DNA of 64,000 nucleotides, taken from positions 8,137,501-8,201,500 of the forward strand of contig NZ_CP063849.1 in the NCBI RefSeq assembly GCF_015277775.1, written 5' to 3'. The notes below the pieces were generated by a model that had not been told where the DNA came from, ran no database searches, and worked only from the letters and a program-made list of their open reading frames with translations. The position numbers and the translations under genes are program-made. Below are positions 31,030 to 49,009 of the stretch, one piece after another. Each line of letters opens with the position of its first letter. Positions within the stretch are counted from its first letter, which is position 1. The stretch comes from Paludibaculum fermentans (GTDB taxonomy: Bacteria > Acidobacteriota > Terriglobia > Bryobacterales > Bryobacteraceae).

Positions 31030-31214
31030 AATAAACCCCAAAAGAGCTGAGAAATAACCGGTAAGCCCGCAATCATAGCAGACCTGCATGGAGGATGGAT
31101 GAAAGCCGCGGCGGCGGCTCGCCCTGGAAAGGCAATGCCGAAGACTTGCAGCGCCTCCAACTGATATGATCCGGACGATTGAGCAGGCCGGGCGCCTGCC
31201 TGGAGGCTTCATCC

Positions 31215-32891: not shown

Positions 32892-32909
32892 TGGCGAGGC
32901 AGATTTCCA

Positions 32910-34139
32910 GTGCCGGTGCAGGAGGTCCGTATCCAACCGAACCTGTGGCGGATCGCGCTGCTGATTGCGGTGGCGATCGCCATCAGCTATTTGGATCGTC
33001 AGACGCTACCGGTGGCAATCGCCGCCATCCAGCGGGATATTCCCATCTCGAATACGCAGTTCTCGCAACTGCAGGCCGCGTTTCTTGTGGCCTACGCAGT
33101 GATGTATGCGGGTGGCGGCAAGCTGATCGATGTGCTGGGCACGCGGCGCGGCTTCGTCTGGATCATGACGACATGGTCCCTCGCCTGCGCGAGCCACGGC
33201 TTTGCGACGGGCTTCCGGTCGCTGGCGGTCAGCCGGTTCCTGCTCGGGCTGGGCGAAGGCGGTGGGTTTCCGGCTGCTACCAAGGCGATTGCCGAGCGTT
33301 TCCCGGTGGCGCAGCGATCGACGGCTATGGGCATTATCAACTCCGGCACGGCCGTGGGTGCAATGGTCGCTCCGCCGGCGATTGCGGCGATTCTCGGGGC
33401 GACGTCGTGGCGCTGGGTCTTCTTTGTCACCAGTCTCCTGGGCCTCCTTTGGACGCTGTGGTGGCTGCGGGACTATACGCCGGTTGGGGCGGTGCAACAC
33501 GGTCCGGCGGAGCCTCCGATCCCGTGGTTGAGGCTGCTGACGTTTCGCGAAACATGGGGGCTGGTGATGGCCAAGTTCATCAGCGACGCCGCCTGGTATT
33601 TCTATCTGTTCTGGCTGCCGAAGTACCTCTACGATGTGCGCGGGTTCGATACGAAGAGCGTGGGCTACTATGCCTGGATCCCCTATGCGCTGGCGGGTGT
33701 GGGGAGTCTGACAGGCGGATGGTTTTCCAGCCGGTTGTTGACGGCCGGCAAGTCGTTGAATTTCTCGCGTAAGCTTACGCTCGGCTTGAGCGCGGCACTG
33801 ATGCCGATTGTCGCCCTGGTGAGCAGTTCCCCGGTGGAGATGGCGATCGCGCTGTTCAGCGTGGCGTTCTTCGGGCAGCAGTCGTGGTCGACGCTGGTGA
33901 TGATCCTGCCGGCGGACCTGTTCCCGCGTGGCGCTGTGGGTTCGGTGGCGGGGCTGGTGGGCTTCGGTGGATCCATGGGCGGAGTGGTCTTCAACCTGGC
34001 TACCGGATTCCTGTTGGATCACGGCTTCGGATACGGCTTCGTGCTTGGACTGGTGAGCACGTTCCACATTGTGGCGTTCCTGATTATCCTGCTGACCGTT
34101 CGCGATGTGAAACCGCTGGCTGTCGAGCGAAAGCACTGA
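32910..34139 (+). CDS. MFS transporter, anion:cation symporter type (hexuronate-like)
   Basis: A 409-residue protein with about twelve membrane helices. The N-terminus (ISYLDRQTLPVAIAAIQRD, about 25-43), GGKLIDVLGTRRGF, and LGLGEGGGFPAATKAIAERFP (about 110-130) match the ACS subfamily that includes hexuronate (ExuT) and glucarate transporters. The second half starts near residue 215 (LMA-type motif WGLVMAKFISDAAWYFYLFW). The annotated start is GTG 32910; a second GTG at 32916 is possible and no clear ribosome site decides. Its place between a GH39-like enzyme and an AraD1-type dehydratase suggests uptake of the released sugar acid. Confidence 0.85.
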   Translation: MPVQEVRIQPNLWRIALLIAVAIAISYLDRQTLPVAIAAIQRDIPISNTQFSQLQAAFLVAYAVMYAGGGKLIDVLGTRRGFVWIMTTWSLACASHGFATGFRSLAVSRFLLGLGEGGGFPAATKAIAERFPVAQRSTAMGIINSGTAVGAMVAPPAIAAILGATSWRWVFFVTSLLGLLWTLWWLRDYTPVGAVQHGPAEPPIPWLRLLTFRETWGLVMAKFISDAAWYFYLFWLPKYLYDVRGFDTKSVGYYAWIPYALAGVGSLTGGWFSSRLLTAGKSLNFSRKLTLGLSAALMPIVALVSSSPVEMAIALFSVAFFGQQSWSTLVMILPADLFPRGAVGSVAGLVGFGGSMGGVVFNLATGFLLDHGFGYGFVLGLVSTFHIVAFLIILLTVRDVKPLAVERKH

Positions 34140-34161
34140 TGCGGCGAAGGGTTTGGGGTTG

Positions 34162-34206
34162 ATGATGGAGAAGCACTCGCACAAGTTATGGGAGGTGATG
34201 GAGTGA
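34162..34206 (+). CDS. Possible 14-codon leader ORF before the AraD1 gene
   Basis: ATG 34162 opens a 14-codon frame (MMEKHSHKLWEVME) whose TGA overlaps the GTG start of the AraD1-type gene as GTGA. Its last codons contain the GGGAGGTGAT ribosome site of that gene. It may be a coupling leader or chance; no homology can be judged at this length. Confidence 0.25.
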   Translation: MMEKHSHKLWEVME

Positions 34207-35201
34207 GCATTCGACTGGTGCAATTGGAATCGGGCGGCGGCCGTTGTGTCGCGCTGGTGGAGGGAAACCACCTTCAGGTATTGCGGGGCTTCGCCTCGGT
34301 CTACGAACTGGCCCAGGCCGCCATCGGGCGCGGAATGCGGCTGGGCGCGCTGGCTGCGGAGAGCGTCTCCGGGCGGACTGAAGACTATGATGCCGTTTAC
34401 GCTGGGCGCTCGGACTGGCGGTTGCTGCCCGCGGGCGATCATCCCACGGAACCGGCGCGCTGCCTGGTTTCGGGGACTGGACTGACGCACCTGGCGAGCG
34501 CGAGCCGCCGGGATGCGATGCACGCAAATACGGCGCAACTCACCGACAGCATGCGCATGTATCTGTGGGGCGAGGAGGGTGGACGGCCAACAGCGGGTCA
34601 AGCGGGCGTGGCTCCGGAGTGGTTCTACAAAGGCAATGGCACCATTCTCAGGGCGCACAACCAGCCGCTGCTGGTGCCGCGATTTGGCGAGGATGGCGGC
34701 GAAGAGCCGGAAATCGCGGGTGTCTATCTCATCGATGCGGAGGGTGTGCCCCGCCGGCTCGGTCTGACGATGGGCAACGAATTCTCCGATCACAAGCATG
34801 AGCGGCGCAACTATCTGTACCTCGCTTCGTCGAAGCTGCGGACCTGTTCCATCGGGCCGGAACTGGTGGTGGATGCTGAATTTGGAGCGGTGGCGGGTCA
34901 GGTGTCGATTCTGCGCGGGGATCAAGTTTTGTGGCGGCACGACATCGGCTCGGGTGAGGCGCGGATGTCGCACACGCTGGCTAACCTGGAGCACCATCAC
35001 TTCAAGTACGAGCAACATCGCCGGCCGGGCGACGTGCATATCCATTATTTCGGAGCGGATGCCTTCAGCTTTGGCGATGGCCTTGAACTGGCGGAGGGCG
35101 ACGTGATGCAGGTTCAATTTGAGGGATTCGGGCGGCCGTTGCGAAATCCGGTTCACATCGACCGGTCCCCGGACGCACTGGTGGCGGTAATGCCTTGCTA
35201 G
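34203..35201 (+). CDS. AraD1/FAH-superfamily sugar-acid dehydratase
   Basis: A 332-residue cytoplasmic enzyme. It has the AraD1/GguC form of the fumarylacetoacetate-hydrolase fold: SGTGLTHLASASRRDAMH (about 97-114), PEWFYKGNGTILRAHNQPL (about 138-156), the metal-binding acidic region EEPEIAGVYLIDAEG, GNEFSDHKHERRNYLYLASSK and RPGDVHIHYFGAD near residue 275. Family members act in oxidative pentose or uronate breakdown, for example as 2-keto-3-deoxy-arabinonate dehydratase; the exact substrate is inferred only from neighbours. GTG 34203 is chosen since it follows a near-perfect GGGAGGTGAT; ATG 34188 would put that site inside the gene. Confidence 0.8.
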   Translation: MSIRLVQLESGGGRCVALVEGNHLQVLRGFASVYELAQAAIGRGMRLGALAAESVSGRTEDYDAVYAGRSDWRLLPAGDHPTEPARCLVSGTGLTHLASASRRDAMHANTAQLTDSMRMYLWGEEGGRPTAGQAGVAPEWFYKGNGTILRAHNQPLLVPRFGEDGGEEPEIAGVYLIDAEGVPRRLGLTMGNEFSDHKHERRNYLYLASSKLRTCSIGPELVVDAEFGAVAGQVSILRGDQVLWRHDIGSGEARMSHTLANLEHHHFKYEQHRRPGDVHIHYFGADAFSFGDGLELAEGDVMQVQFEGFGRPLRNPVHIDRSPDALVAVMPC

Positions 35202-35258: not shown

Positions 35259-36464
35259 CTACGGTTTGGCGGGCTTGCGGGCCGACCTGGCTTTGCCCTG
35301 GCCACCGAACTCCACAGGCGCCTGCTCGAGAGCGTCGTTCAGGGCGGCTGTGATTTTTGGATCTCCGGGCGCTAGTTTCAACGCCTCGCGCAACTGGTCG
35401 AGCCCTTCCACCCAGCGTCCCAGGCGGAGCGCAGCGACCGCGTAGTTGACGCGAATGCCGACGTGGCTGGGGTCCAGGGCCACCGCCGCCTGGTACTTGC
35501 TCACTGCTTCGGGAAGCTTTCCGGACTTTTCCAGCTCGGCGCCCTCATTGTTGAGGCGCAGCGCATTGAAGGCGTTCTGGCTCTCCCCGTCGATGCCGTG
35601 CAGCACCTCGGTCAGGCGCTGCTTGACGCGCTGGGCTTCTTCGGCCTGGCCGTCCTGGCGCAGGGCCAGTTGCAAGCTGTTCAAGGTCGCCTGGTCGTTC
35701 GGCTTGAGCCGGTCAGCTATTTTAAGAGGCGCGACCGCTTCGTGCGGGTGGCCTTGCCGCAGGTACTCTGAGCCGAGGCGGAGCTGGGCGATCGCGTTCT
35801 CCGAGTCGATGGCGACAGATTTCTGGAAGGCAGCCAGGGCGCCGGGCTCGTCCAGCAGCGTCTTGCGGGTCTGGCCGAGGTCGGACCACGCTTCAGCGAA
35901 TTGCGGCTGCAGGGCGACCGCCTCCTGCAGCAGCGCCGCGGCTTTCTGCGTCTCGGTGTTCTCGGTGTGGATCTTGGCGCGCAGGTAGCGAGGGAAGGCG
36001 GAATCGGGCTTACGGCCCAGCAGCACGATCGCCCGGTCGAGGTGGACCGCGGCGCCCTTGAAGTCGTTGGACTCCAATAAGACAAGGCCGAGGTCGATGC
36101 GGGCCTGGGCGAAGTTGGGGTTGAGCGTGACGGCCCGCAGAAACTCGACCCGCGCTGGTTCCGGCTGGCCGAAGTTCTTCAGCGCCTCGCCCAGGGCATG
36201 ATGGGCTTCCGCGGATTGGGGCCGGAGTTTCACCCCCTGCCGGAGATGCTCGAGCGCTTCAGCCGGCTTGCCCTCCTCAGCGAGCAGGCTGCCTAGCATC
36301 AGGTGGGCGTCCGCATTGGCGGGGGTCGACTTCAGAACTGCTTCGAGGATACGGGTGGCGCCGGCCCTGTCGCCTTTGGCGATGAGATCCCAGGCCTGAT
36401 CCAGCGGCTGGCGCTGCGCGAACAGCAGCGAGGAGAGGACCAGAAGTGGAAGCAGTTTCGACAT
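35259..36464 (-). CDS. Tetratricopeptide repeat protein, exported
   Basis: A 401-residue protein with a signal peptide (MSKLLPLLVLSSLLFAQ) and about nine to ten TPR units from residue 20 to 385, for example ANADAHLMLGSLLAEEGKPA, SAEAHHALGEALKNFGQPEP and HVGIRVNYAVAALRLGRW. The C-terminus is basic (KARSARKPAKP). TPR units bind proteins; location is probably periplasmic. It starts three bases after the stop of the CRTAC1 gene, so the two are co-transcribed, and the same pairing is common in Acidobacteria. Confidence 0.85.
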   Translation of the reverse strand: MSKLLPLLVLSSLLFAQRQPLDQAWDLIAKGDRAGATRILEAVLKSTPANADAHLMLGSLLAEEGKPAEALEHLRQGVKLRPQSAEAHHALGEALKNFGQPEPARVEFLRAVTLNPNFAQARIDLGLVLLESNDFKGAAVHLDRAIVLLGRKPDSAFPRYLRAKIHTENTETQKAAALLQEAVALQPQFAEAWSDLGQTRKTLLDEPGALAAFQKSVAIDSENAIAQLRLGSEYLRQGHPHEAVAPLKIADRLKPNDQATLNSLQLALRQDGQAEEAQRVKQRLTEVLHGIDGESQNAFNALRLNNEGAELEKSGKLPEAVSKYQAAVALDPSHVGIRVNYAVAALRLGRWVEGLDQLREALKLAPGDPKITAALNDALEQAPVEFGGQGKARSARKPAKP

Positions 36465-36467
36465 GGA

Positions 36468-38228
36468 TCAGCCTTGCTTGAACTTCTGGGTACGAGTGAT
36501 GCCTGAGCCCTCGGTGACGTGGATCAGTTGGTCGCAGGGCACGGCGGCGAGCTTCTCTACGAGGCCGAGCGGCCAGCGAATCTCAAGGTCCACGGTCTGC
36601 GCCGGGCCGAGTCCGAAATGAAGCCTCGTGTCATTCACAGACAGGTAGGACGATTGGCTCAGCACCTCCTGCACCTGGACCTTGCCTCCATAGCGGGCCG
36701 TCACCCGGGCTCCGATCGCGCTGCGGTTCGACTTCACGCCCGTCAGCTTCACCTTCAACCAATGATGGCCGCTGGTGACGTCGTTGCGAAGCAGGGACGG
36801 CGGCTCGTTCTGATTGACGATCAGGATGTCCATGTCGCCGTCGTTGTCGAAATCCCCGAAAGCGCAGCCGCGGCTGGCGTGAAGGGCGGCGACCCCGGGT
36901 CCCGCTTCCGCGAAGAGTTCCTCGAACTGGCCCTGGCCGAGGTTGCGGAAGAGGACTCGCGGGGTCTTCAGCGGTACGTTCGGGAACTTCTTTTCGACTT
37001 CGGGATAGATGCTGCCGGTCACCCAGAAAATGTCGGGCAGGCCGTCGTTGTCGAAGTCGACCAGGCCCGTGCCCCAACTGACGTATTGCGTCTCGACACC
37101 AAGTCCGGCTTTCAGCGTGACATCGCGGAAGTTGCCCTTGCCGTCGTTCTGGTAAAGAGCGGGCGTGTCCTCGCGAAAGTGCATCTTGAGGATGTCGAGA
37201 TGGCCGTCCAGGTTGTAGTCGCCGATGCCGAGGCCCATGCCGGCCTGTTCCATGCCGTCCTCGCTGAGGGCGGCTCCGCAGTCGAGGCCCTGTTCGGTGA
37301 AGGTGCCGTCGTGGTTGTTGCGGAACAGCAGGCTGGGCGTGGAGTCGCAGGCGACGTAGATGTCGGGCCAGCCGTCGTTGTCGAAGTCCGCCGCGACCAC
37401 GGTCAGGCCGAAGCCCCCGGCCACCTTCGAGATTCCGGCCTCCGCTGTGACGTCTGTGAACGTGCCGTCGCCGTTGTTGCGATAGAGCAGGTGATGGCCA
37501 TAAGGCAGCCCTCGAGGGCCGCAGTTCACGGCAACATTCATGTAGTTGCAGGCGCCGGTGTCGGTGGGGCGCGGCACGGTCTTCATGTCGAATTCGAGGT
37601 AGTTGGCGACAAAGAGGTCCAGGCGGCCGTCCCGGTTATAGTCGACAAAGGCGCAGCCCGAGCCGAAGCGGGGCGTGGGGCTCAGCAGCCCGGCTTCCTT
37701 TGTGACATCCGTGAACGTGCCGTCCCCATTGTTGCGGTAGAGGACATTCTGGCCGTAGTAGGTGAGGAAGAGATCCTCGAAGCCATCGTTGTTGTAGTCG
37801 CCGACAGTGACGCCTTGCGCGTAGCCTGTGCGCAGCAGACCGGCCTTCTCGGTGACATCGGTGAAGGTGCCGTTGCGGTTGTTCCTGTAGAGGCGATTGG
37901 AGGCGGCTGGCGGCGGGTCTGCGGTTCGGGATCCGCAAAGGACCAGGATGTCGAGCCAACCATCGTTGTCGTAGTCGAAAAACGCGCAGCCGGCGCTCAT
38001 CACCTCCACAATATAGTCGGCGCGGTCGCGGTGGCCCGCGACGGTGATGTGCGTGAGTCCGGCCTGGGGTGCAACGTCAGTAAATCGGGCAGGGAAGGGG
38101 AGGCCGGAGGGTTTCCGCCGCGGCGAGGCTTTGACGCCGCGGGAGGCCATGCCCTGGATCTGGGCGCGTACATTGGAGGCGGACAGCGAGAGCAGGCTCA
38201 AGGCGGCCCGGCGGGTGAGAGAGGCCAT
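36468..38228 (-). CDS. CRTAC1-type FG-GAP/ASPIC repeat protein, Tat-exported
   Basis: A 586-residue protein. The start at 38228 gives a twin-arginine signal (MASLTRRAALSLLSLSASNV). Seven calcium-binding repeats of the form D-[YF]-[DN]-x-D-G-x-x-D-[IL] are visible, including DYDNDGWLDILV, DYNNDGFEDLFL, DYNRDGRLDLFV, DFDNDGWPDIYV and DFDNDGDMDILI, each followed by LYRNNGDGTFTDVT-like strands; together they suggest a beta-propeller. The C-terminal 75 residues are the ASPIC/UnbV module (RSAIGARVTARYGGKVQVQE, LHFGLGPAQTVDLEIRWP). Probable role is extracellular or periplasmic binding of protein or glycan; unproven. A T-tailed terminator separates it from the receptor gene upstream. Confidence 0.88.
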   Translation of the reverse strand: MASLTRRAALSLLSLSASNVRAQIQGMASRGVKASPRRKPSGLPFPARFTDVAPQAGLTHITVAGHRDRADYIVEVMSAGCAFFDYDNDGWLDILVLCGSRTADPPPAASNRLYRNNRNGTFTDVTEKAGLLRTGYAQGVTVGDYNNDGFEDLFLTYYGQNVLYRNNGDGTFTDVTKEAGLLSPTPRFGSGCAFVDYNRDGRLDLFVANYLEFDMKTVPRPTDTGACNYMNVAVNCGPRGLPYGHHLLYRNNGDGTFTDVTAEAGISKVAGGFGLTVVAADFDNDGWPDIYVACDSTPSLLFRNNHDGTFTEQGLDCGAALSEDGMEQAGMGLGIGDYNLDGHLDILKMHFREDTPALYQNDGKGNFRDVTLKAGLGVETQYVSWGTGLVDFDNDGLPDIFWVTGSIYPEVEKKFPNVPLKTPRVLFRNLGQGQFEELFAEAGPGVAALHASRGCAFGDFDNDGDMDILIVNQNEPPSLLRNDVTSGHHWLKVKLTGVKSNRSAIGARVTARYGGKVQVQEVLSQSSYLSVNDTRLHFGLGPAQTVDLEIRWPLGLVEKLAAVPCDQLIHVTEGSGITRTQKFKQG

Positions 38229-38270
38229 GTCGGGTGCTAGCTGTGATCCAGTATATCGGTGGCGGGCAGG

Positions 38271-38318
38271 AAAAACCCGCGCGGAGTGCCGAAGTTGAGC
38301 TTCGACACCCTGCGCGGG
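38271..38318 (-). terminator. Rho-independent terminator of the receptor gene
   Basis: On the minus strand, about 30 bases past the receptor stop codon, a long hairpin forms between CCCGCGC (38312-38318) and GCGCGGG (38276-38282), with an inner CGAAG/CTTCG stem, and is followed directly by TTTTT (38275-38271). This is a textbook intrinsic terminator and the best in the window. Confidence 0.85.
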
Positions 38319-38349
38319 ACAGGGGGCCAATGGAATTGGCGTGAGAGGG

Positions 38350-41300
38350 CTAGAAGATGATCTTCAAGCCGACTTCCACCTGGCGGCCGGACACGTTGCC
38401 GAGTTCCTGGGTCTGGGGTCCGAACTGTGCCGCGGGGGTGCCTTGGTACAGAGCCTGGCCAAACTGCGAGCTGGTGACATCCGTGTTGGGGTTGCCGAGG
38501 TTCAGGCGGTTGATGGCGTTATAGGCGGCCATCTTGAGCTGCACACGGACGCGCTCAGTGATGTTGACGTCCTTGGTGAGGGTGGCGTCCAACATGTAGT
38601 ACGCGGGACCGGTGAGGTTGTCGAACTGCAGCGGATTGGCCCGGATCACGTAGGTGCCGGACGGAATCGCTGAGAAGGCCGAGGTATTGAACCACTTGTT
38701 CATGCCCGGATTCGAGATCGTCGGATCCGTGCCGTTGTAGTTCATCTTGCCGAAGCGCAGGATGGCGCCGGTGGAGTAGGTGGAGATGCCCGTCAACTTC
38801 CAGCCGCCTGCGATGTAGTTGCCGATCTTGCTCTCGCCCAGGAAGGGCTTGCCCTTGCCGAAAGGCAGGTCATAGCTGCCGGCCATCGTGACGCGATGGC
38901 GCGGCTGATTGCTGTTCTGGTAAGTCAGGCTGTTTGTGAATGTGTCGAGTTCATTGAACAGCTGCTCGGTCTTTTCACGAATGAACACATAGGCGAACAG
39001 GAAGTGGTAGCCGTGGCTGTAAGCTTTCTGGGCCTTCAGTTCGAGGGAGTGATAACGTTCGGCTGCGCCGCGCGTGCCCACTTCGTAGAGCCCGCCGTAC
39101 TGCGGGTAGGGCGCGAGGAGGCTGGACAGTGTCACAGTCTTCTGATTCCGGAGCGAACCCGGGAAGAGGGTCGGCGTGAGGTAGTTGTAGAACGGGTTGT
39201 CCACGTTCACGTTGATAGCGCCCTGCTGGGCGACCTGGATGCGGGGATCCCAATTGTTGAGAGCCTTGGTGTAGTGCTGGTTGCCAAGGTTCAGGAAGTA
39301 GGTGGCCGAAACCATGACCTGACCAGGCATCTGGCGCTGGAAGTTGACGTTGAAACGGTCGTTGTAGGCCTTTTCGAACTTCCGGGGGTACCAGAGCAAT
39401 GACGTGCCGCCACGGCCCAGGTTGGTGCCATATGCTTTACCGTTGATCGGCAGCAAGGGGTTGCTGGCCGGATAGGGATCGGAAATCGTCTGCTGCGGGA
39501 TGCCCTGCAGCAGGCCGGCCGTATTCTGGTAGCCCTTGACGCCGAAGTAAGGCGGCTCCAGGAAGCTGACCGTTTCAAAGCCGGACACGGGAGCCTGGCT
39601 GAGGTTCATTTCCGTCGGGATGACGTAGCGGGCGTAGCCGACACGAAGTACGGTGAGGTCGTCGATCTTGAAGGCGGCGCCGGCGCGAGGTGCGAGGGCG
39701 AGCTTCGGTGCATCCCACATGCCGGGATGATCGCTGGAGGTCCAGAGCCACTGGCCTTTGTTCTGGTAGTAGTTATTCCCCACCAGGGCGAGAGCGGAGG
39801 CCGGCATGGCGGCCGGGCTGGCTACCATTTCCGGTACGGGAGCTGACATGTCCAGGCCCTGCGACATGAAGTGATTCGGGTCCGACCAGGCAGACTCGTA
39901 CTCATTGCGGAGGCCAAGGTTGAGGGTGAGGCGGCGGCTGACCTTCCAGTCATCCTGGAAGTACATGCCCCAGAACTGGACATGCGGATCGGGGGCGGGA
40001 CCGCCGATCATCTGGGAGGAGCCGTCCAGTGAGCCAAGCAGGAAAGTAGCAAAGCCGTTGCCATAGTGCTTGGTGTCCGGGTTGTTATAGGTCTCAGCCG
40101 TGACGTTGGCCGGGAAGTAGAAGTTCGAGGTGTTGCCCACGAACGACACGCCATAACCGCGACGGGTTTCGACGCCGGCCTTCAGGTAGTGAGAGCCGCG
40201 CTGCTGGGCGATCTTGGCGCTGTACGCCATGCCTTCGGGGCGCTGATCCCAATAGAAGCCGCGGCCGCCGAAGCCGTTGCCGCCGATGTTCAGGCCGGGG
40301 AAGTAGACGGGCACTCCGGGGGAGGCGTCCATATAGGTCTTGTACCAGGAGTTGCCGGGCCAGAGCTTGCCCCAGCCTTCCGAACCCATGCTCGTGGAGA
40401 CGTAGGCGTCAATTACCTTGTGCCAGTCGCCGTGGAAGTTGACCACGGTGGTTGGGGTAGCGGTCCAGATGGCGTCGCCGGAGAGCTGATGAGCGGCTCT
40501 CAGTGTGCCGGTGGGGGTATAGAGCTGCGACTGGTTCGGGGTGGCGTTCGGCGAAAGGTCGTCGGTGTGATACCGGCCGAAGCGGCCATAGACCTTCCAC
40601 TTGTCGTTGATGTTGTAGTCGACGCGGTCAGAGAAGTTGTAATACGTGTAGTTCTCGACGTAGCCGGCCTTGAAGTTGTTGACACCAGTGATGTTGTCAC
40701 CACCGCTGTTCGCATCCCAGAAGTTGCCCATCAGGCTGGAGGCCAGGGGGTCGAAGCGGCTTTTGGGGATGACGTTGCCGGCGAAGGGCGTGCGGGTCAC
40801 GACACCCGCTGCATTCTGGACCGTGGTGTAGGGATCGAAAACGGTACGCAGGCCGCCGTCGATATTGAGCGATTTGGAGAAGTCGCCGCCGCGTTCCAAT
40901 GCCGTCGGGACAGTGGTGGTGTAGCTGCTGGGGTAGCCGACCTTCCAATACTCGAGAGAGAAGAAGTTGAACAACTTGTTCTTAATGATCGCGTTGCCGA
41001 GCGTGCCGCCCAGCATGTGCTGGCGGGTGGCGTTCTTGGTGAAACGGGTGCGGTCTGCTTCCGCGTTCAGCCAAGGGTAGCGGCCCAGGTAGAAACCAGT
41101 GCCGTGATACTCGTTGGTGCCCGACTTCAGCGTCATGGAGATGAGGCCGCCGGCGCTGTGGCCGGATTCCGCGTCCACGCTGTTCTGCGAGACGACGACT
41201 TCCTGCACCGCGTCGGTGTTCGGGGGATAGCTGTTCTTCTGCCCCATGCCGATGGGGCTGCCGTCGACCTGGAGGTCATTCTTCAGGTTCGTGCCGCCGC

Positions 41301-41859
41301 CGAGGTCGACGCTGTTCGCGGCCCAGGAGTGATAGGGGGCCATCTCACCGCGTGTGTTAACGGCCGAGGGAGCGAGGAGGGTTAACTTGAATGGGTTGCG
41401 GTCGATACGGGGGATGTCCGCGGTCAGCTTAGAGTCCAGCGTGAAGTCCTTGTTACTGGAGTTAAACTGGACGGCCACGGGTGTTTCCGAGACTGTGATG
41501 CTCTCCTGGACGGCGCCGGGCTTGAGGCTGGCGTCGATAGTCACGTCGCCGCGCATCTGGACCGTGATGTTTTCCTGGCTGTATTTGCCGAAGCCAGCCG
41601 CTTCGACGGAGATCGTGTAGGTGCCAGGATCCACTAAATCAAAGAGATAAAGACCTGTATCGCTGGTTTTGCGAGTTGCCTTGACGCCGGTGGCGACATT
41701 CAGCAGGGTAACGCTGGCACCCGCGATGACAGCCTGGGTCTGATCGGTCACTACGCCTTGGACTCGGCCGCGATAGCTCTGGGCAAAGGCGCTAAAACAA
41801 AGGATTGAAATCAACAGGAACGCTGTTGCGATGCGGATCGCAGATCGGTGCAATCTCAT
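38350..41859 (-). CDS. TonB-dependent receptor, Oar-like with CarbReg domain
   Basis: An 1169-residue outer-membrane protein. Signal peptide (about 1-26, ending FSAFAQ), a carboxypeptidase-regulatory-like domain (about 30-115: GVVTDQTQAVIAGASVTLLN ... GLYLFDLVDPGTYTISVEA), a plug-like region (about 125-255, with DLQVDGSPIGMGQKNSYPP and GGLISMTLKSGTNEYHGTG), and a long beta-barrel to a terminal phenylalanine (VGLKIIF). The layout matches the Oar-like receptors that dominate acidobacterial outer membranes. The substrate is unknown. Divergent from it, 392 bases away, is a ToxR-like regulator; the terminator after the receptor suggests a single-gene transcript. Confidence 0.9.
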   Translation of the reverse strand: MRLHRSAIRIATAFLLISILCFSAFAQSYRGRVQGVVTDQTQAVIAGASVTLLNVATGVKATRKTSDTGLYLFDLVDPGTYTISVEAAGFGKYSQENITVQMRGDVTIDASLKPGAVQESITVSETPVAVQFNSSNKDFTLDSKLTADIPRIDRNPFKLTLLAPSAVNTRGEMAPYHSWAANSVDLGGGTNLKNDLQVDGSPIGMGQKNSYPPNTDAVQEVVVSQNSVDAESGHSAGGLISMTLKSGTNEYHGTGFYLGRYPWLNAEADRTRFTKNATRQHMLGGTLGNAIIKNKLFNFFSLEYWKVGYPSSYTTTVPTALERGGDFSKSLNIDGGLRTVFDPYTTVQNAAGVVTRTPFAGNVIPKSRFDPLASSLMGNFWDANSGGDNITGVNNFKAGYVENYTYYNFSDRVDYNINDKWKVYGRFGRYHTDDLSPNATPNQSQLYTPTGTLRAAHQLSGDAIWTATPTTVVNFHGDWHKVIDAYVSTSMGSEGWGKLWPGNSWYKTYMDASPGVPVYFPGLNIGGNGFGGRGFYWDQRPEGMAYSAKIAQQRGSHYLKAGVETRRGYGVSFVGNTSNFYFPANVTAETYNNPDTKHYGNGFATFLLGSLDGSSQMIGGPAPDPHVQFWGMYFQDDWKVSRRLTLNLGLRNEYESAWSDPNHFMSQGLDMSAPVPEMVASPAAMPASALALVGNNYYQNKGQWLWTSSDHPGMWDAPKLALAPRAGAAFKIDDLTVLRVGYARYVIPTEMNLSQAPVSGFETVSFLEPPYFGVKGYQNTAGLLQGIPQQTISDPYPASNPLLPINGKAYGTNLGRGGTSLLWYPRKFEKAYNDRFNVNFQRQMPGQVMVSATYFLNLGNQHYTKALNNWDPRIQVAQQGAINVNVDNPFYNYLTPTLFPGSLRNQKTVTLSSLLAPYPQYGGLYEVGTRGAAERYHSLELKAQKAYSHGYHFLFAYVFIREKTEQLFNELDTFTNSLTYQNSNQPRHRVTMAGSYDLPFGKGKPFLGESKIGNYIAGGWKLTGISTYSTGAILRFGKMNYNGTDPTISNPGMNKWFNTSAFSAIPSGTYVIRANPLQFDNLTGPAYYMLDATLTKDVNITERVRVQLKMAAYNAINRLNLGNPNTDVTSSQFGQALYQGTPAAQFGPQTQELGNVSGRQVEVGLKIIF

Positions 41860-42193
41860 TCATGAACCTCCCAACAATATGACTACTAGCGAGACGTTGA
41901 ACGGGGTTGGCTGCAGGCAGAGAAGTCACCGGGCTGGGGACGGCCCGCGCGAGCGGGACCGGGATTTGCCTGGTGTTCGCCGAGGGTGTCCGATCTGGCC
42001 GATCTATCGCGGCTTGTGGATCAGGACAACCGCCCTGCAGTTCCCTTAGGACCTAGGACTCCTTACGGCGCAAACACCGGTGGGATCACGCGGGATTCCG
42101 GCGCGCCAGTTCATCCATGCTTTGATATACTACCGGTCGGTGAACTTGATTAATATTGTCCGACTACCGTACTAGGAGATCAAGGTAAGTCAT
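41860..42193. other. Divergent intergenic region between receptor and regulator
   Basis: No gene seen. The region must hold the receptor promoter (minus strand). The receptor-proximal part is GC-rich; 42115-42180 is AT-richer (TTTGATATACTACC, TTGATTAATATTG) and is the likelier promoter zone for the regulator gene. No riboswitch-like fold was recognised. Confidence 0.4.
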
Positions 42194-42231
42194 AGTGAAT
42201 TCACTCGCCGGTTCACTAGTGAACGAGTGAA
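42194..42231 (+). promoter_or_regulatory. AGTGAA/TTCACT operator array
   Basis: Five copies of one hexamer lie within 38 bases directly before the regulator gene: AGTGAA at 42194, TTCACT at 42200 (together a perfect 12-base palindrome), TTCACT at 42212 and AGTGAA at 42218 (inside the perfect palindrome GTTCACTAGTGAAC, 42211-42224), and AGTGAA at 42226. The regular units suggest cooperative dimer binding, most likely by the adjacent winged-helix regulator. Confidence 0.6.
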
Positions 42232-42251
42232 AGTAACACACTCGGTCGAGT

Positions 42252-43586
42252 ATGAGCGAAAGTCACTCCATGCTGGTGGCGGCTAACGAAAAGCAACTCG
42301 CAGGCGATGCTCGCTGGGCTCTGGCCCTGCGGGTTGCGAGCAGCAAAGGGTTCGCGAAAGCGGCCCACCTGCGGGAACTGCTGCTCTACCTGGTGAAGCG
42401 CACCCTCACGGCGCCCGGTGTCGAAATTACCGAGCAGGAAATTGGCTGCCAGGTGCTGGGGCGCCGGCAGGATTACGATACCCAATCGGACAATATAGTA
42501 AGGGTTCAAATCCGCCACCTTCGGCAGAAATTGGAAGAGTATTTCGCGACCGAAGGCGGCACCGAGCCGCTGGTGCTCACGGTGCCCAAAGGCAGCCGGG
42601 TTCCCCACTTCGAGATACGTTCGGAACCCGAAGTAAAGACAGTCCATTCCGATCCCGCGGTGGTGGTGGAGACGGCGCCGGCCAGAAGCCTGCGATCCCG
42701 CATCCCACGGTTCGTCCAGGTGGCGTTGCCAGGGTCTGTACTGGTGCTTGCGGCCTTCCTGATAGGGCGGGTTTCGGTCCGTCAGGATGCCGCGAACCAG
42801 GCCCTGGCAAATCCAGGCTCCAACAGTCCGCTGTGGAGCCGCCTGTTTACCCCAGCCGAACTGACGACCATCGTGATCGCCGACAGCAGCTTCGCCCTGC
42901 TTCAGGACACGCTGCGCAGTGCTTTGACTCTGGACGAGTACACAAAGGGTGGATTACGGAAGCTGATCGAGGCGGAGCCGGACGAGCGGCTCAAGACTAT
43001 ACTGCGGGATATGTCGACCCGGCAGCACACCAGCCTCGCGGACGCCACAATCTCCAGCAAGCTAAGGGTGATCGGGAAGCAGGCCGGCGGCAGGGTTACC
43101 GTGCGTTACTCCCGCCACATGGGCGTGAGGGACTTTGCAGCGGGTAACTTCATTATCATTGGTAGCAAGCGCGGAGTGCCGTGGGTGGAGCTGTTCGAGC
43201 AGGATCTCAATTTCCGCCTGAAGCACATTGGACCGGATTGGCGGTTCGGGTTCGCCAACCTGAACCCGCAGGCTGGCGAAAGTGCCAGCTACTCCACCAT
43301 GGTGCCCCCCAACACGCCCACTGAAAGCTACGCGACGGTCGCCTTTGTTCCGAATACGGCTCGGACAGGTGATGTGCTGCTGCTCGACGGGCTGATGATG
43401 GAAGCGACCGAGGCCGCCGGCGAGTTCTGCATGGGCGGCGGTCTGAACAGACTGCTGGCTGAGAAACTGCACTTCACTACGAGCGACAAGCTTCCGTACT
43501 TTGAGGTCCTGCTTAAGATCCGGGTCGTCTCCGGCGCGCCGCACAACGTGGAAGTCGTGGCCTGGCGCCGGCCGGCGATCCTTTAA
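42252..43586 (+). CDS. ToxR-like membrane regulator with extracytoplasmic sensor domain
   Basis: A 444-residue protein. Residues about 35-121 look like a winged-helix DNA-binding domain (HLRELLLYLVKRTL, ITEQEIGCQVLGRRQDYD, NIVRVQIRHLRQKLEEYF, LTVPKGSRVPHFE). A basic stretch precedes one membrane helix (about 154-175), so the rest should be outside the cytoplasmic membrane. The sensor part (about 190-444) has conserved-looking motifs such as NFIIIGSKRGVPWVELFE and ESYATVAFVPN. Similar proteins recur in Acidobacteria, but I know no studied member. Divergent from the receptor gene, with the AGTGAA/TTCACT array in between, it probably controls that receptor and itself (inference). Confidence 0.65.
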   Translation: MSESHSMLVAANEKQLAGDARWALALRVASSKGFAKAAHLRELLLYLVKRTLTAPGVEITEQEIGCQVLGRRQDYDTQSDNIVRVQIRHLRQKLEEYFATEGGTEPLVLTVPKGSRVPHFEIRSEPEVKTVHSDPAVVVETAPARSLRSRIPRFVQVALPGSVLVLAAFLIGRVSVRQDAANQALANPGSNSPLWSRLFTPAELTTIVIADSSFALLQDTLRSALTLDEYTKGGLRKLIEAEPDERLKTILRDMSTRQHTSLADATISSKLRVIGKQAGGRVTVRYSRHMGVRDFAAGNFIIIGSKRGVPWVELFEQDLNFRLKHIGPDWRFGFANLNPQAGESASYSTMVPPNTPTESYATVAFVPNTARTGDVLLLDGLMMEATEAAGEFCMGGGLNRLLAEKLHFTTSDKLPYFEVLLKIRVVSGAPHNVEVVAWRRPAIL

Positions 43587-44029: not shown

Positions 44030-47000
44030 ATGGTTGCCTTTCAAAATCGATTGACCCCTTGGCGGTCACTACTGCTGGCGTTCTTCTCTATCTCCCTGTC
44101 CGCGCAAACCGGCCCAAGCTGGCGATTCTGGTCCTCACTGGACGGAATGCCCGAATCGTGGAGCTTTGACGTGACCCGCGGGCCTTCCGGTCGAATTATT
44201 GTCACGCACGGAGATGTTAAGAATCTTTCAGTTCTTGATGGGTACAAATTCCAGCAGTTGCCATCTCCCGGCGTAAATCTAACCGTTCGTGAAAGTCCAG
44301 ACTTACGCCTTTGGGCATTATTGCCTTCGCTCGACGGGTTTCAGCGCCTGGAAAAAAATGGCTGGGTCGCTTATCCGCTGCGCGGCGTAAGTATTCTGGC
44401 CGACCATGATCATCGCAGCTATTTTCTCCCCTGGACCTCCGCGCAGATAGTCTTTCTGGCCCGTGATGGACTATATGAATATGACGCGGATCGAGCCGCG
44501 GCCCGCGTACTGAAGCGGGACGCCGACGCCGGGTTGGGGCCGCTGACGGTGCTGGTGCCCTCTAGCAATGGAGGCGCGTGGGTATGCGGACGGGAGGGCG
44601 TGGGGCGAGTCAGCAGAGTCTCGTCGGGATCAATCGATTGGTCGGTTCTGCGTTTTCCCCAGTCGGCCGGTGAATGCCGGTCGGTGCTGGAAGGCGAGCA
44701 CGGCGAGTTGTTTGTGTCCACGCTGGCCGGCACCACCGGGGGGCAGCGGCTGTTGCACTACGACGGGGCGGCTTGGACGACCTTGGCCACTTCCGAGTCG
44801 GGTCGTTCCCTGGTTGGATGGCCGGCCGGTGACGGCAGCGCCTGGGTGGCCGAGATCAGCCGCACTACTTTTGAATTGAGATCGGGCACCGGCAGCCGCG
44901 AGAGCCGGTCTAGAGCGCTGTCCGGACGGTTCCTATCTGTTCTCTATGAGGGCAGGGGTTGCTTCTGGGTGGCAACCTCTCTAGGGCTGGCACGGTTTGC
45001 GCCGCCCGTTTGGAGAACGCCCGGGGCGCTATTGGACAAAACCGGCCAGGCGTCTGCCATTCTGCGCACCAGGGCGGGCGGCCTTTACCTGATCCACGGC
45101 AGTGAGTTGCTGGAGAGAAAAGGCGGTCGCTGGTCCACATTCCTGCTGCCTGGAGGATTTGACCCCGATCCGTCAACCCACTCCCTCGTGGAGTTGCCGG
45201 ACGGGCGATTAGCCCTGGCCAGCGGCCCGGGCCTGCTTGTATTCGATCCCATCCGGTCGTCGTTTACCACCATCCGGCACCCGGACGGCAGGAATGTCTC
45301 CGTGCTCGGCCCGGGCCGGAATGGCACGGCTTGGGTTCTGGCCTCGAAGGATGGCCGGAGCCACCGTCTGGAACGGTTCGATGGCAACTCCTTCTCCATT
45401 CAGTACGACGCCGCCGAACGTTGGGGCGAGACAATTCCCCGGGCTGTCCAGGAGACAGGCGACGGGACGCTATACATCGTTCCACAGCCGCAGGGGATTG
45501 GCGTCCTGAAAGACGGGCACTACCACTCATTGGGTGCTGAGCAGGGCTATCCGGGCCGGAGCCCGCTGGCCGTGGCGGAAGTGGCTCCGGGTAAGCTATG
45601 GTTCGGCGACCGCAACAGTGTCGTGGAGTATGACGGCCGCGGTTTTGTGACGATTCGGGACAATCTGCAGACCGTCCGCTCCATTCTAAAGGCGGGCGAC
45701 GGTTCCATCTGGGTGGCTTCCGGCCGGGGCCTCAGCCGGTTTTGGAACGGAGAGTGGATCAACATTGCCAACACCGAGGGGCTGCCGGATGCCGCCGTGT
45801 ACGGAGTTGCGGAAGATGCCGAGGGCCGCATCTGGGCTACTACCACCGCGGGGATCTCCCGAAGCGACCCTGGCGCCGACACGGAGCCCCCTCAAACCCT
45901 GCTCGACATGGACGCCAATCCGCGCCACGTTCCGCCGTCCGGAGAGGCGCGCTTCGTCTTCTCCGGCATGGATAAGTGGAAGTACACGCCGGAAGCCCGT
46001 CTCCTCTATTCGTGGCGGCTGGATGGCGGGCCATGGTCCAGGTTCGCCGCGTCGGATTCGGCCGAGTTCCAGCATCTGGAGCGTGGAAAGAGCCACGTTC
46101 TGGAAGTGCGCGCGGTCGACCGGAACGGGAATGTGGATCCCGATCCTTCCTCGCTTGCCTTTGACGTTCTGCTTCCGTGGTACCTGGAGCCCGGGTTCCT
46201 GGCCTCCTGTTTTCTGGGTTTGTTCGCATTGACCGGGGCCGGAGTGCTGACGCTGGTGCGGCAGAGGCAATTGGCCACACTGGTGGAACGGAGAACGTCG
46301 GCGCTGGCCGCCCGCAACAAGCAGTTCCAACAGGTTGCGGCCGCCGTGCCGGGCGTCCTCTACTCTTTCCGAATGACGCCCGAGGGGCAGTTCTCCGTCC
46401 CGTATGCCAATCAGCGAATCTTCGAAATGGCCGGCGTCAGAGCCGAGGATCTCGTGGCGGAGGCCGGACCGCTGTTTGACACGATTCATCCTGACGACAT
46501 GAGGAGGGTGAGTGAATCGATTGCCGCGTCAGCCGCCTCGCTGACCCTGTGGCATGACGAATTCCGTGTGGTGCGGGCGGGGCAGCCGGTTGTCTGGATC
46601 GAAGGACGCTCCATCCCCTCAAGGGAACCGGGCGGAAGCATCCTGTGGCACGGCTTCATGTCGGATGTCACGGAGAGGAAGCGGTTGGAGGAGGCGGCGC
46701 GCCGGGAGACGGAACGAGAGATGGTTCTCCTGCAGACCCTGGTTGCGGAGGCGCCCTACGGCTTGGCCATGCTCGATCGCGGATTGCGCCAGATCCAGGC
46801 CAGCGAGCGTTGGCTGGCCGGTATTGGGCTCAGCCGCGAACAGTCGAGCGGACGCACGATCAGCGAACTGCTCCCCACGCTGGAGGATCGTTGGATGGAT
46901 GCCTGCCGGCGCGGCCTCAGGGGTGAAGTTGTGTCCGAACAGGATGATCATTTCACGCGTGCGGACGGTTCCGAACGCTGGGTCAACTGGACGGTTTGTC

Positions 47001-49009
47001 CGTGGGGCGACTCGGGTGAGGAGACCGGTGGCATCATCATCTATACAGAAGACATAACTGAGAGGAAGCAGGCGGAAGAATCGGCCAGGGAGACGGAGAT
47101 CCGGTTCAGCGAACTCTTCGTACACATGAGTGAAGTGCTGATCTATGGCCGCATGCTGTATGCAGACGGTGTCCCGTACGACTTTGAGTACCTTGCCGTA
47201 AACGAAAGTTACCGGCGATTGAATCCTGCGCGCCCTGCGGTGGTGGGGAAGCTTGTCTCCGAGGTTCTTCCGGGCCTGCGGCAATCGGATCCCGCTGTAC
47301 TTGAGTTCTACGGGCGGGTGGCTTCGACGGGCAAACCGGAAAGCACTGAGCTGTTCGTCCAGGCAACGAAATCGTGGTACTCCATCTCCTCCTACAGCCC
47401 CAAGCCCGGCGAATTTGTCGGCATCTTCAGTGTGATTACTGGCCGCAAGCGGGCGGAAGAGGAGTTGCGGCGCAGCCAGGCGATGCTGCATTCCATCATT
47501 AACTCCGCGCTCGACGGACTCATCGCCATCGACGGCGAAGGCCGGACTGTTCTGTGGAACCCTGCAGCGGAACGGATTTTCGGATACACTGCCGCAGAGG
47601 TGGCGTCGGAGCCGCTGCACAAGCTGATCGGGTCTACAGGCATCAGTGAACTGTTCTCGCAGGGGTTCGAACTGATCGGGGCATCTGGCCAGACACCGTT
47701 CGTCGGCCGGACAGTGGAGATGACGGCCGTGCGCAAGGACGGGACGGAGTTCCCGGTGGAACTGAGCGTGGCGCCCGTCCACATGTCGGATTCGTTCCGC
47801 GCCGTTGGCGTCGTACGGGATGTGACGGCCCGCAAGTTGGCGGAAGCTGAAAGGGAGCGGCTGCAGAATCAGTTCCTGCAGGCGCAGAAAATGGAGACGG
47901 TCGGCCGGCTGGCCGGCGGGATCGCCCACGACTTCAACAACCTCCTGACCGTGATCGGCGGCTATTCCCAGATGGCGATCGATCAGTTGCCGAAGGAGAG
48001 CCCGGCCCGTCCCAAAATCGATGAGGTTGTCAGGGCGGGCGAACGTGCCACGGGGCTGGTCCGTCAATTACTCGTATTCAGCCGCAAGGAGGTTCCCAGA
48101 TTGGAGGTAGTAGATGTCAACTCAACTATTGCCGAGATGGAAAAGACGATCTTCTACCTGGTTGGGGAGGACATCAGTATCGTTACCAGCCTGGCGTCTG
48201 AGCGCGTGTTGGTGGCGGCAGACCGGCACCAGTTCGGCCAGGTGCTGATGAACCTCATAGTCAACGCGCGCGATGCGATGCCGGGAGGCGGATCCATCAC
48301 GATCACCACCCGTGTCGCGGACGCCGGTGATGCGGCCGCGGTGAGTGCCGGCATTCCGCCGGACATTGGCACCGTTTGCGTGAGTGTTTCGGACACCGGT
48401 ACTGGCATGGACGAGGAGACCAAGCAGCATCTGTTTGAGCCATTCTTTACCACCAAGCCGGCGGGGAAGGGCACCGGCCTGGGCCTGTCGGTGGTTCACG
48501 GCATCGTTTCGTCGTGTGGCGGCCGGGTGGCGGTTGAGACTGTGCCGGGCTCCGGCTCGGCGTTTCACGTCTACCTGCCGGCGGTCACGGCGGAGGTGCC
48601 CGGAGACACGCCGGCCGCCCGGCGGGTGTCTGGCGGGTTGGAGACAGTCCTGCTCGCTGAGGATGAGCCTGAGGTCCGGCGCTATGTTTCCGCCGTCCTG
48701 GCTCACTTCCACTACCAGGTTATTGAATGTCAGGATGCCGAGGACGCCCTGGAGATGCTCAAGACCCAGAGGGTGGATCTATTGTTGACCGACGTTATCA
48801 TGCCGCGCATGAGCGGCCGGGAACTGGTGCTGCGCGCCCGGACTTTGAATCCTGATTTGAGGGTGCTCTTTATGTCGGGCTATCCGGGTGACGCCCTGGA
48901 TGGACTGGAGGACATCATCGGAACCAGCGCTTTCATCCAGAAGCCGTTCAGCCCGAAAGACCTGGCTGCCCGGATCCGTGAATTGCTGAGCAAGCCGGGC
49001 CGGTCCTAA
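44030..49009 (+). CDS. Hybrid sensor histidine kinase with propeller, Y_Y_Y, PAS and receiver domains
   Basis: A 1659-residue inner-membrane sensor. Signal peptide (LLLAFFSISLSAQTG), a periplasmic beta-propeller of two-component-regulator type (about 30-620; e.g. AVYGVAEDAEGRIWATTTAG), a Y_Y_Y domain (about 630-705), one membrane helix (FLASCFLGLFALTGAGVLTL, about 724-743), then about four PAS-like domains starting near 765, 903, 1023 and 1151. The kinase core has GRLAGGIAHDFNNLLTVIGG with His1300, N-box NLIVNARDAMPGGG, and DTGTGMDEETK with GTGLGLSVVHGI. A C-terminal receiver has Asp1588 (TDVIMPRMSG). It resembles SusR-type hybrids but ends in the receiver with no DNA-binding domain, so a separate regulator is needed. 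Confidence 0.93.
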   Translation: MVAFQNRLTPWRSLLLAFFSISLSAQTGPSWRFWSSLDGMPESWSFDVTRGPSGRIIVTHGDVKNLSVLDGYKFQQLPSPGVNLTVRESPDLRLWALLPSLDGFQRLEKNGWVAYPLRGVSILADHDHRSYFLPWTSAQIVFLARDGLYEYDADRAAARVLKRDADAGLGPLTVLVPSSNGGAWVCGREGVGRVSRVSSGSIDWSVLRFPQSAGECRSVLEGEHGELFVSTLAGTTGGQRLLHYDGAAWTTLATSESGRSLVGWPAGDGSAWVAEISRTTFELRSGTGSRESRSRALSGRFLSVLYEGRGCFWVATSLGLARFAPPVWRTPGALLDKTGQASAILRTRAGGLYLIHGSELLERKGGRWSTFLLPGGFDPDPSTHSLVELPDGRLALASGPGLLVFDPIRSSFTTIRHPDGRNVSVLGPGRNGTAWVLASKDGRSHRLERFDGNSFSIQYDAAERWGETIPRAVQETGDGTLYIVPQPQGIGVLKDGHYHSLGAEQGYPGRSPLAVAEVAPGKLWFGDRNSVVEYDGRGFVTIRDNLQTVRSILKAGDGSIWVASGRGLSRFWNGEWINIANTEGLPDAAVYGVAEDAEGRIWATTTAGISRSDPGADTEPPQTLLDMDANPRHVPPSGEARFVFSGMDKWKYTPEARLLYSWRLDGGPWSRFAASDSAEFQHLERGKSHVLEVRAVDRNGNVDPDPSSLAFDVLLPWYLEPGFLASCFLGLFALTGAGVLTLVRQRQLATLVERRTSALAARNKQFQQVAAAVPGVLYSFRMTPEGQFSVPYANQRIFEMAGVRAEDLVAEAGPLFDTIHPDDMRRVSESIAASAASLTLWHDEFRVVRAGQPVVWIEGRSIPSREPGGSILWHGFMSDVTERKRLEEAARRETEREMVLLQTLVAEAPYGLAMLDRGLRQIQASERWLAGIGLSREQSSGRTISELLPTLEDRWMDACRRGLRGEVVSEQDDHFTRADGSERWVNWTVCPWGDSGEETGGIIIYTEDITERKQAEESARETEIRFSELFVHMSEVLIYGRMLYADGVPYDFEYLAVNESYRRLNPARPAVVGKLVSEVLPGLRQSDPAVLEFYGRVASTGKPESTELFVQATKSWYSISSYSPKPGEFVGIFSVITGRKRAEEELRRSQAMLHSIINSALDGLIAIDGEGRTVLWNPAAERIFGYTAAEVASEPLHKLIGSTGISELFSQGFELIGASGQTPFVGRTVEMTAVRKDGTEFPVELSVAPVHMSDSFRAVGVVRDVTARKLAEAERERLQNQFLQAQKMETVGRLAGGIAHDFNNLLTVIGGYSQMAIDQLPKESPARPKIDEVVRAGERATGLVRQLLVFSRKEVPRLEVVDVNSTIAEMEKTIFYLVGEDISIVTSLASERVLVAADRHQFGQVLMNLIVNARDAMPGGGSITITTRVADAGDAAAVSAGIPPDIGTVCVSVSDTGTGMDEETKQHLFEPFFTTKPAGKGTGLGLSVVHGIVSSCGGRVAVETVPGSGSAFHVYLPAVTAEVPGDTPAARRVSGGLETVLLAEDEPEVRRYVSAVLAHFHYQVIECQDAEDALEMLKTQRVDLLLTDVIMPRMSGRELVLRARTLNPDLRVLFMSGYPGDALDGLEDIIGTSAFIQKPFSPKDLAARIRELLSKPGRS

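Follow-up and report, generated by a model that had tools for sequence, protein, structure and literature searches.

The window, that is the whole 64-kb stretch of DNA analysed, holds the gene of a ToxR/CadC-like membrane regulator with a new sensor domain which is predicted to control cassettes of receptor genes in Acidobacteriota, a reading whose probability we put at roughly three in four. Given its membrane-switch architecture, the recurrence of a divergent receptor gene beside it and a DNA signal shared between the loci, the regulator probably switches the uptake of particular nutrients on or off. The earlier note on this DNA had proposed that the protein monitors the extracytoplasmic space and controls expression of the receptor, and we infer the same from the results below.

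The regulator and receptor genes diverge across a gap of exactly 392 bp (41860–42251), and both open reading frames, as read in the earlier note, were confirmed (Table 1). Same-genus relatives of the regulator frame are 84%, 76% and 55% identical over nearly the whole length, thus it is not a chance frame. The spacing of the UnbV_ASPIC and TPR genes behind the receptor suggests that they are possibly co-transcribed with it.

Table 1. Features of the regulator/receptor locus, in window coordinates.
Feature	Position	Strand	Basis
Membrane-bound regulator, 444 aa	42252..43586	+	ORF with ATG start; same-genus relatives; AlphaFold2 model
OmpR/PhoB-type winged-helix DNA-binding domain, residues about 20-122	42309..42617	+	VIA alignment; weak Pfam Trans_reg_C
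Single transmembrane helix, residues about 154-175	42711..42776	+	Hydropathy; predicted helix; arginine-rich just before
BcsB/GH67-N-like fold domain, probably extracytoplasmic, residues about 193-440	42828..43571	+	AlphaFold2; VIA
Divergent Oar-like receptor, 1169 aa, CarboxypepD_reg + OMP_b-brl_4	38350..41859	-	Pfam
Candidate operator, match to family element GTGAATTCnCnGnnAA	42187..42205	.	Best match in the 64-kb window
Palindrome AGTGAATTCACT, inside candidate operator	42194-42205	.	Sequence
Second perfect palindrome GTTCACTAGTGAAC	42211..42224	.	Same-genus conservation; composite unique in genome
TGATATACT, -10-like, weak	42123..42131	+	Kept in four same-genus genomes (alignment)
FG-GAP/UnbV_ASPIC protein, 19 bp behind receptor	36468..38330	-	ORF; Pfam
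TPR protein, 3 bp behind UnbV_ASPIC gene	35259..36464	-	Pfam

The regulator, its domains and its family

The regulator was modelled with AlphaFold2 on 37 sequences, giving a mean pLDDT of 86.6 over the whole protein. The winged-helix-like domain described earlier was found by structure alignment to have an OmpR-type fold: model residues 19–122 aligned in VIA to the OmpR-type DNA-binding domains of PrrA (Z 7.5), SaeR (7.0), PhoB (6.3) and CadC (5.4). Pfam Trans_reg_C scored 20.9 bits on the regulator, under its cut-off of 26.2, and matched 11 of the 37 relatives at E ≤ 0.01, while no NCBIfam family was found for the regulator. A single-sequence search of the PDB with the winged helix returned STING chains throughout, with a best E of 0.17, and these were taken as chance matches.

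The single membrane helix was likewise supported, by a hydropathy of 2.15 over 19 residues from 154 and by a predicted helix at 153–182 in the model. The N-terminus is probably cytoplasmic because an arginine-rich stretch lies immediately N-terminal to this helix, and the C-terminal domain is predicted to be periplasmic.

The earlier note could name no family for this outer domain, and in terms of sequence that statement stood. No Pfam family was found for the domain, a family profile gave 0 matches among PDB sequences at E ≤ 10, and a second profile gave only three (E 0.38–1.6), one of them the S-layer protein 9fsa (E 0.49). Pfam hints were weak, namely S_layer_C in 3 of 36 domains (best E 0.017) and BcsB in one of the 36 (0.036). 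The fold, on the other hand, could be recognised. Modelled alone, the domain gave a confident prediction (pLDDT 91.9, pTM 0.91), and among the structures on the VIA list its top match was residues 534–725 of BcsB (6yg8_A; Z 10.4, rmsd 3.4, 165 aligned residues, about 10% identity). Further matches were BcsB 215–351 (Z 9.3), the Methanococcus S-layer anchor 9fsa (9.1), which thus turned up in both the weak sequence search and the fold search, and the N-terminal domains of the glycosidases GH67 (9.1), GH115 (9.1 to 7.3) and GH84 (8.1 and 7.6). The next unrelated fold dropped to Z 4.8. Foldseek E-values were modest, the best being 3.5e-3. The matched domains of BcsB are labelled flavodoxin-like, and BcsB, the glycosidase N-terminal domains and the S-layer anchor are all extracytoplasmic. 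The predicted fold is thus recognisable as BcsB/GH67-N-like (Z 7.3–10.4); the likeness is one of fold, and common descent is no more than possible.

Nine residues of the outer domain, D211, R288, G304, S305, R307, P310, W311, E343 and G380, are invariant in the 37 relatives. The named loci were collected with the peptide pattern [LI][LIV]GS[RKF]R[GAS][NVI]PW, so that the way of collection itself accounts for part of the conservation that alignments A3 and A5 show at G304, S305, R307, P310 and W311, and only D211, R288, E343 and G380 are free observations.

This conservation bears on a rather unlikely alternative, that the outer domain is an envelope anchor or oligomerisation module and not a ligand sensor, the signal entering elsewhere through the state of the membrane or a partner protein. 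Among the best fold matches are a cellulose-synthase subunit that forms oligomers and a domain that serves as a cell-wall anchor, and both BcsB and the archaeal S-layer anchor may act in this way. Moreover, the identity of D211, R288 and E343 in all 37 relatives, whose loci differ in cargo, would be odd for a specificity pocket. However, strictly kept polar residues would fit a binding site equally well and a shared fold shows no function, and in the 36 domains gathered without the pattern G304, F321 and G380 alone reach 90%, so that conservation says little either way.

In the window genome (9.5 Mb) 37 matches to the regulator correspond to 36 genes, two matches being pieces of one ORF. Eighteen regulators carry the same C-terminal domain, and 18 other winged-helix paralogues (within L042–L068, about 200–760 aa) have different C-termini. 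Regulator matches were present in 43 of the 61 genomes searched, its own included, some of these to the winged helix only. A profile of the C-terminal domain matched 33 of 297 genomes sampled evenly across the phylum; 25 of these belong to the same class as the window, and in the other 8 the match is only partial. In family f8 the domain was present in 22 of 30 genomes. Among the 38 named loci, which encode close relatives of the C-terminal domain, 37 are labelled as acidobacterial, many as Bryobacterales and one as Paludibaculum, and L132 is labelled just 'bacterium'. Cultured genera that carry the family include Terriglobus, Edaphobacter and Granulicella. Because a peptide pattern was used, the collection may lack relatives that are more distant or come from outside the Acidobacteriota.

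Loss of the DNA-binding fold or of the membrane helix is not the rule among homologues. Of the 60 f8 relatives, 58 keep the winged helix and 58 have a hydrophobic segment above 1.5. The winged helix is kept in 37 of the 38 named loci, partially in L102 at a contig end, whereas the fragment L136 lacks it. Pieces of the C-terminal domain that have no winged helix in the same frame were seen at L136:7119-7628, L110:1031-1405 and L186:6495-7034 and are either decaying copies or assembly errors.

Pairing with Oar-like receptor genes

The window receptor matched PF25183 with 448.6 bits and CarboxypepD_reg with 66.2 bits in Pfam, and its layout of CarboxypepD_reg plus OMP_b-brl_4 is one that we take to be Oar-like. 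Pfam Plug did not match it at E ≤ 0.01, though present on 5 of 18 paired receptors, so the label 'TonB-type' is an assumption that follows from the Oar-like layout. The window genome has at least 65 Oar-like PF25183 receptors (65 scored, 142 candidate places), a very large number for a single genome.

Neighbourhoods were surveyed with a profile built from the window receptor and its matches. In the window genome a receptor lay within 1 kb of 14 of the 18 regulators, 11 divergent and 3 on the same strand; one of the others has a receptor 1.9 kb off and three have none within the stretch examined. For the named loci a receptor lay within 1 kb in 25 of 38 cases (nearest receptor divergent in 21, same-strand in 3, convergent in 1), and the other 13 comprise 8 with a receptor further off, 4 with none in stretches under 9 kb and one gene fragment. 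The f8 loci, which are the 60 best-scoring profile matches outside the window genome after removal of the contig-edge row G261:C21, had a receptor within 1 kb in 39 cases (28 divergent, 8 same-strand, 3 convergent), while 15 of the remaining 21 had one further off and 6 had none. The named and f8 sets overlap, L120 and L219 being apparently the same locus, and for this reason were not summed. A receptor within 1 kb was found for none of 34 random genes in the window genome and for 4 of 35 in the f8 genomes, and for none of the 69 was it divergent. The divergent Oar-like receptor is therefore recurrent among homologues (11/18, 21/38 and 28/60 against 0/69), as the earlier note had expected. In the window genome the same method placed a receptor within 1 kb of 14 of the 18 domain carriers but of only 2 of the 18 paralogues with different C-termini, one of these two divergent, which indicates that in this genome pairing follows the sensor domain more than the winged helix. 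No conserved third gene was found at the divergent pairs, no neighbour cluster occurring in more than 4 of 55 pairs.

In at least 35 of 55 divergent pairs the receptor is followed, within 400 bp and on its own strand, by an ORF of 140 codons or more; some stretches end at that point. This cargo differs from locus to locus and includes many hydrolases. In Pfam 9 of the 35 genes are carbohydrate-related (a sulfatase, GH27, GH92, GH88, a heparinase/alginate-lyase type, two GH106, GH95 and a chitobiase C-terminal domain) and 7 are phosphoesterases. GH106 enzymes act on glycans containing rhamnose, GH95 on fucosylated glycans and GH88 on uronides. Four are UnbV_ASPIC proteins (window included), three universal stress proteins and two DUF218; a GDSL hydrolase, a second receptor, DUF5054 and an ABC transporter are single cases, and 6 gave no match. 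Taken by themselves, the carbohydrate-related genes show no clear excess over background, with 7 of 20 behind receptors in f8 compared with 2 of 20 random f8 genes, both glycosidases. The UnbV_ASPIC gene of the window locus has counterparts behind the receptors of L099, L101 and L111, and such cargo may thus mark one branch of the family.

The tight pairing could also reflect signalling coupled to the receptor, in which the periplasmic domain touches the N-terminal domain of the receptor and transport itself is the signal, much as in FecA/FecR with a winged-helix protein. In FecA/FecR, transport-coupled signalling runs through the receptor, an anti-sigma factor and a sigma factor. CarboxypepD_reg was found on all 18 paired receptors scanned, and across genomes the nearest neighbour of a regulator and that of its receptor agreed in 19–22 of 55 pairs, depending on the parts compared, against permutation means of 1.0–1.2 and maxima of 5–7. 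(L108, a near-copy of the window locus, was kept in this comparison, although the observed count did not admit it as the neighbour of the window.) However, permutation also breaks kinship, so that the agreement is explained by common descent of whole loci and reflects a pair inherited together rather than co-evolution at the molecular level. Within the window genome a Mantel test on 11 regulator/receptor pairs showed no correlation of distances, either for the C-terminal domain (Spearman −0.19 to −0.13, p 0.7–0.8) or for the winged helix (−0.36 to −0.19, p 0.85–0.99). STN was absent from the 13 families that matched any of the 18 paired receptors at E ≤ 0.01, a result that counts against signalling of the FecA type. 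Receptor-coupled signalling thus appears very unlikely. The regulator resembles the FecA/FecR/FecI system and FoxA-type receptor signalling (for FoxA see PMC11658791) in having a periplasmic part, which is predicted here, and standing beside an outer-membrane receptor. It differs from FecA/FecR/FecI in that a DNA-binding domain replaces the anti-sigma/sigma pair and in the lack of STN on the receptors scanned.

A DNA element shared by the divergent gaps

A DNA element shared by about half of the gaps between the genes adds sequence-based evidence for regulation. Of 56 divergent pairs 51 gaps made up the motif set, after L226 (the same pair as L200), L108 (the near-copy of the window) and L037, L109 and L181 (gaps under 30 bp) were left out. 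The top hexamer, ATTCAC/GTGAAT, occurred in 26 of the 51 gaps against 5.7 in shuffles, and in controls it was seen in 4 of 42 divergent gaps and 35 of 306 upstream regions. The six best of 120 random-start runs of motif finding converged on GTGAATTCnCnGnnAA. Motifs trained on one half of the loci separated the unseen half from controls with AUC values of 0.83 and 0.82 (p 9e-8 and 8e-8), 9 of 25 and 14 of 26 unseen loci lying above the 95th control percentile. Training on control regions gave unrelated sequences with likelihoods of 63 and 63, compared with 143 and 87. Inverted repeats upstream of all the regulators barely exceeded shuffles (mean score 6.2 versus 5.5, Wilcoxon p 4e-4), hence the case for a shared element is made by the motif search and not by symmetry.

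When the window genome was left out of the matrix, the best match in the window was at 42187–42204 with 16.0 bits, the next elsewhere scoring 10.6; a matrix from f8 alone gave 42188–42205 with 14.6 and 11.5 for the next. In four same-genus genomes conservation within the gap peaks over 30 bp at 42195–42225, where 77% of positions are invariant, as against 36% over the whole gap. A composite of the two palindromes in Table 1 occurs exactly once in the 9.5 Mb genome, with one more place at two mismatches. A sigma-70 promoter scan of the 392-bp gap found no site. The element lies about 47–65 bp before the regulator's own start, which makes autoregulation likely.

The picture was less sharp across the loci in the window's own genome. 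At only 6 of 11 of them (5 of 11 with a narrower training set) did the gap contain the best site of the entire stretch scanned, and 5 of 10 held-out pairs were above the element threshold. The same threshold was exceeded at 5 of 20 unpaired receptors, with scores of 8.6–11.7 against 11.1–19.8 for pairs. An element-like site is also present at the winged-helix paralogues L044, L049, L055, L065 and L068, in keeping with recognition of the site by the winged helix.

The sites at unpaired receptors and other paralogues also suit an alternative of linkage without regulation, in which whole cassettes are duplicated and transferred together while the main targets of the regulator are its own gene or genes far away. 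About a third of the loci have no close receptor, and in the window the candidate operator is nearer to the regulator start than to the receptor start, both of which would suit that alternative. On the other side, divergent orientation is much more frequent than at random genes and rare among the remaining winged-helix paralogues, and the single occurrence of the composite site in the genome argues for a local target. Linkage without regulation is thus held to be highly improbable.

Mode of action and relation to known systems

Control of the divergent receptor by the regulator would work as follows. A one-component transcription regulator tethered in the inner membrane would act like ToxR or CadC, with its single helix as the putative anchor. 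The cytoplasmic winged helix would bind the GTGAATTCnCnGnnAA element in the promoter region shared by the two genes, and would hold the GTGAATTC element of that promoter. The periplasmic domain would respond to a signal, for which the likeliest candidate is a product released when the substrate imported by the paired receptor is broken down, and the signal would cross via the membrane helix, probably by altered oligomerisation. The divergent receptor gene would then be switched, its transcription being raised or lowered. The ligand of the outer domain may be a carbohydrate. A wider claim, possible but somewhat doubtful, makes the family a general foraging switch of Acidobacteriota. On this view oligosaccharides, or other products of the paired hydrolase, would be the ligands of the periplasmic BcsB/GH67-N-like domain, and an operator common to the whole family would put a dedicated Oar-type receptor under the control of each regulator. 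If this claim were true, the family would constitute a form of receptor control distinct from the sigma/anti-sigma and HTCS systems and a sensor class new to signalling.

In mode of action the regulator probably belongs with the ToxR/CadC-like transmembrane transcription regulators (TTRs). The sensor folds of CadC and ToxR differ from the BcsB/GH67-N-like fold, and it is in this domain that the regulator departs from them. With the ToxR/CadC TTRs, as presented in the parts of a 2023 survey drawn on here (PMC10269533), it shares an N-terminal OmpR-type winged helix, one membrane helix and a C-terminal domain that is extracytoplasmic in the TTRs and probably so here; the same parts report TTRs to be numerous and somewhat more so in Acidobacteriae. 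In those parts no standing partnership of TTRs with outer-membrane receptors appears, and 'TonB' and 'BcsB' occur 0 times in the main text of the survey. The C-terminal domain has the fold of BcsB, of the GH67, GH115 and GH84 N-termini and of the S-layer anchor 9fsa, but unlike BcsB and the glycosidase relatives it is fused via a membrane helix to a DNA-binding domain. A full-text literature search, with results in the form of titles and abstract openings and with subscription papers outside its scope, found no description of the regulator/receptor pairing. As far as that search shows, the class of sensor domain, the standing partnership with an Oar-like receptor and the candidate operator are new.

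The arrangement also recalls a system of another phylum. The SusC/SusD polysaccharide utilisation loci of Bacteroidota have SusR or HTCS regulators. As in those loci, each cassette has a regulator, a receptor and sometimes hydrolases, and there are several cassettes per genome; the differences are the Oar-like receptor, the one-component winged-helix regulator and the absence of a Pfam SusD match in the 35 genes directly behind receptors. The family may be a module of receptor and regulator to which different cargo genes are joined, and in its logic it would correspond, within the Acidobacteriota, to the SusC/HTCS loci.

Acidobacteriota form a major group among the bacteria of soil. The repeated regulator-receptor pair and its predicted operator provide a handle on the many Oar-like receptors of the window genome: from each regulator one is led to a receptor, and in many cases to a hydrolase as well, so that classes of substrate can be guessed locus by locus. 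A fold from cellulose synthesis and glycosidases also joins the possible signal-sensing domains of bacteria.

Two further groups of genes in the window were observed near the pair. Downstream of the regulator, 44030–49009 (+) encodes a hybrid histidine kinase of 1659 aa that combines Reg_prop propeller repeats with several PAS domains and a receiver; Pfam matched no DNA-binding domain in it, and it resembles the sensor part of HTCS proteins. On the other side, 31179–35201 (+) encodes a GH39 glycosidase, an MFS transporter and a 337-aa protein without a Pfam match at E ≤ 1e-4, possibly a sugar-use cluster converging on the receptor operon.
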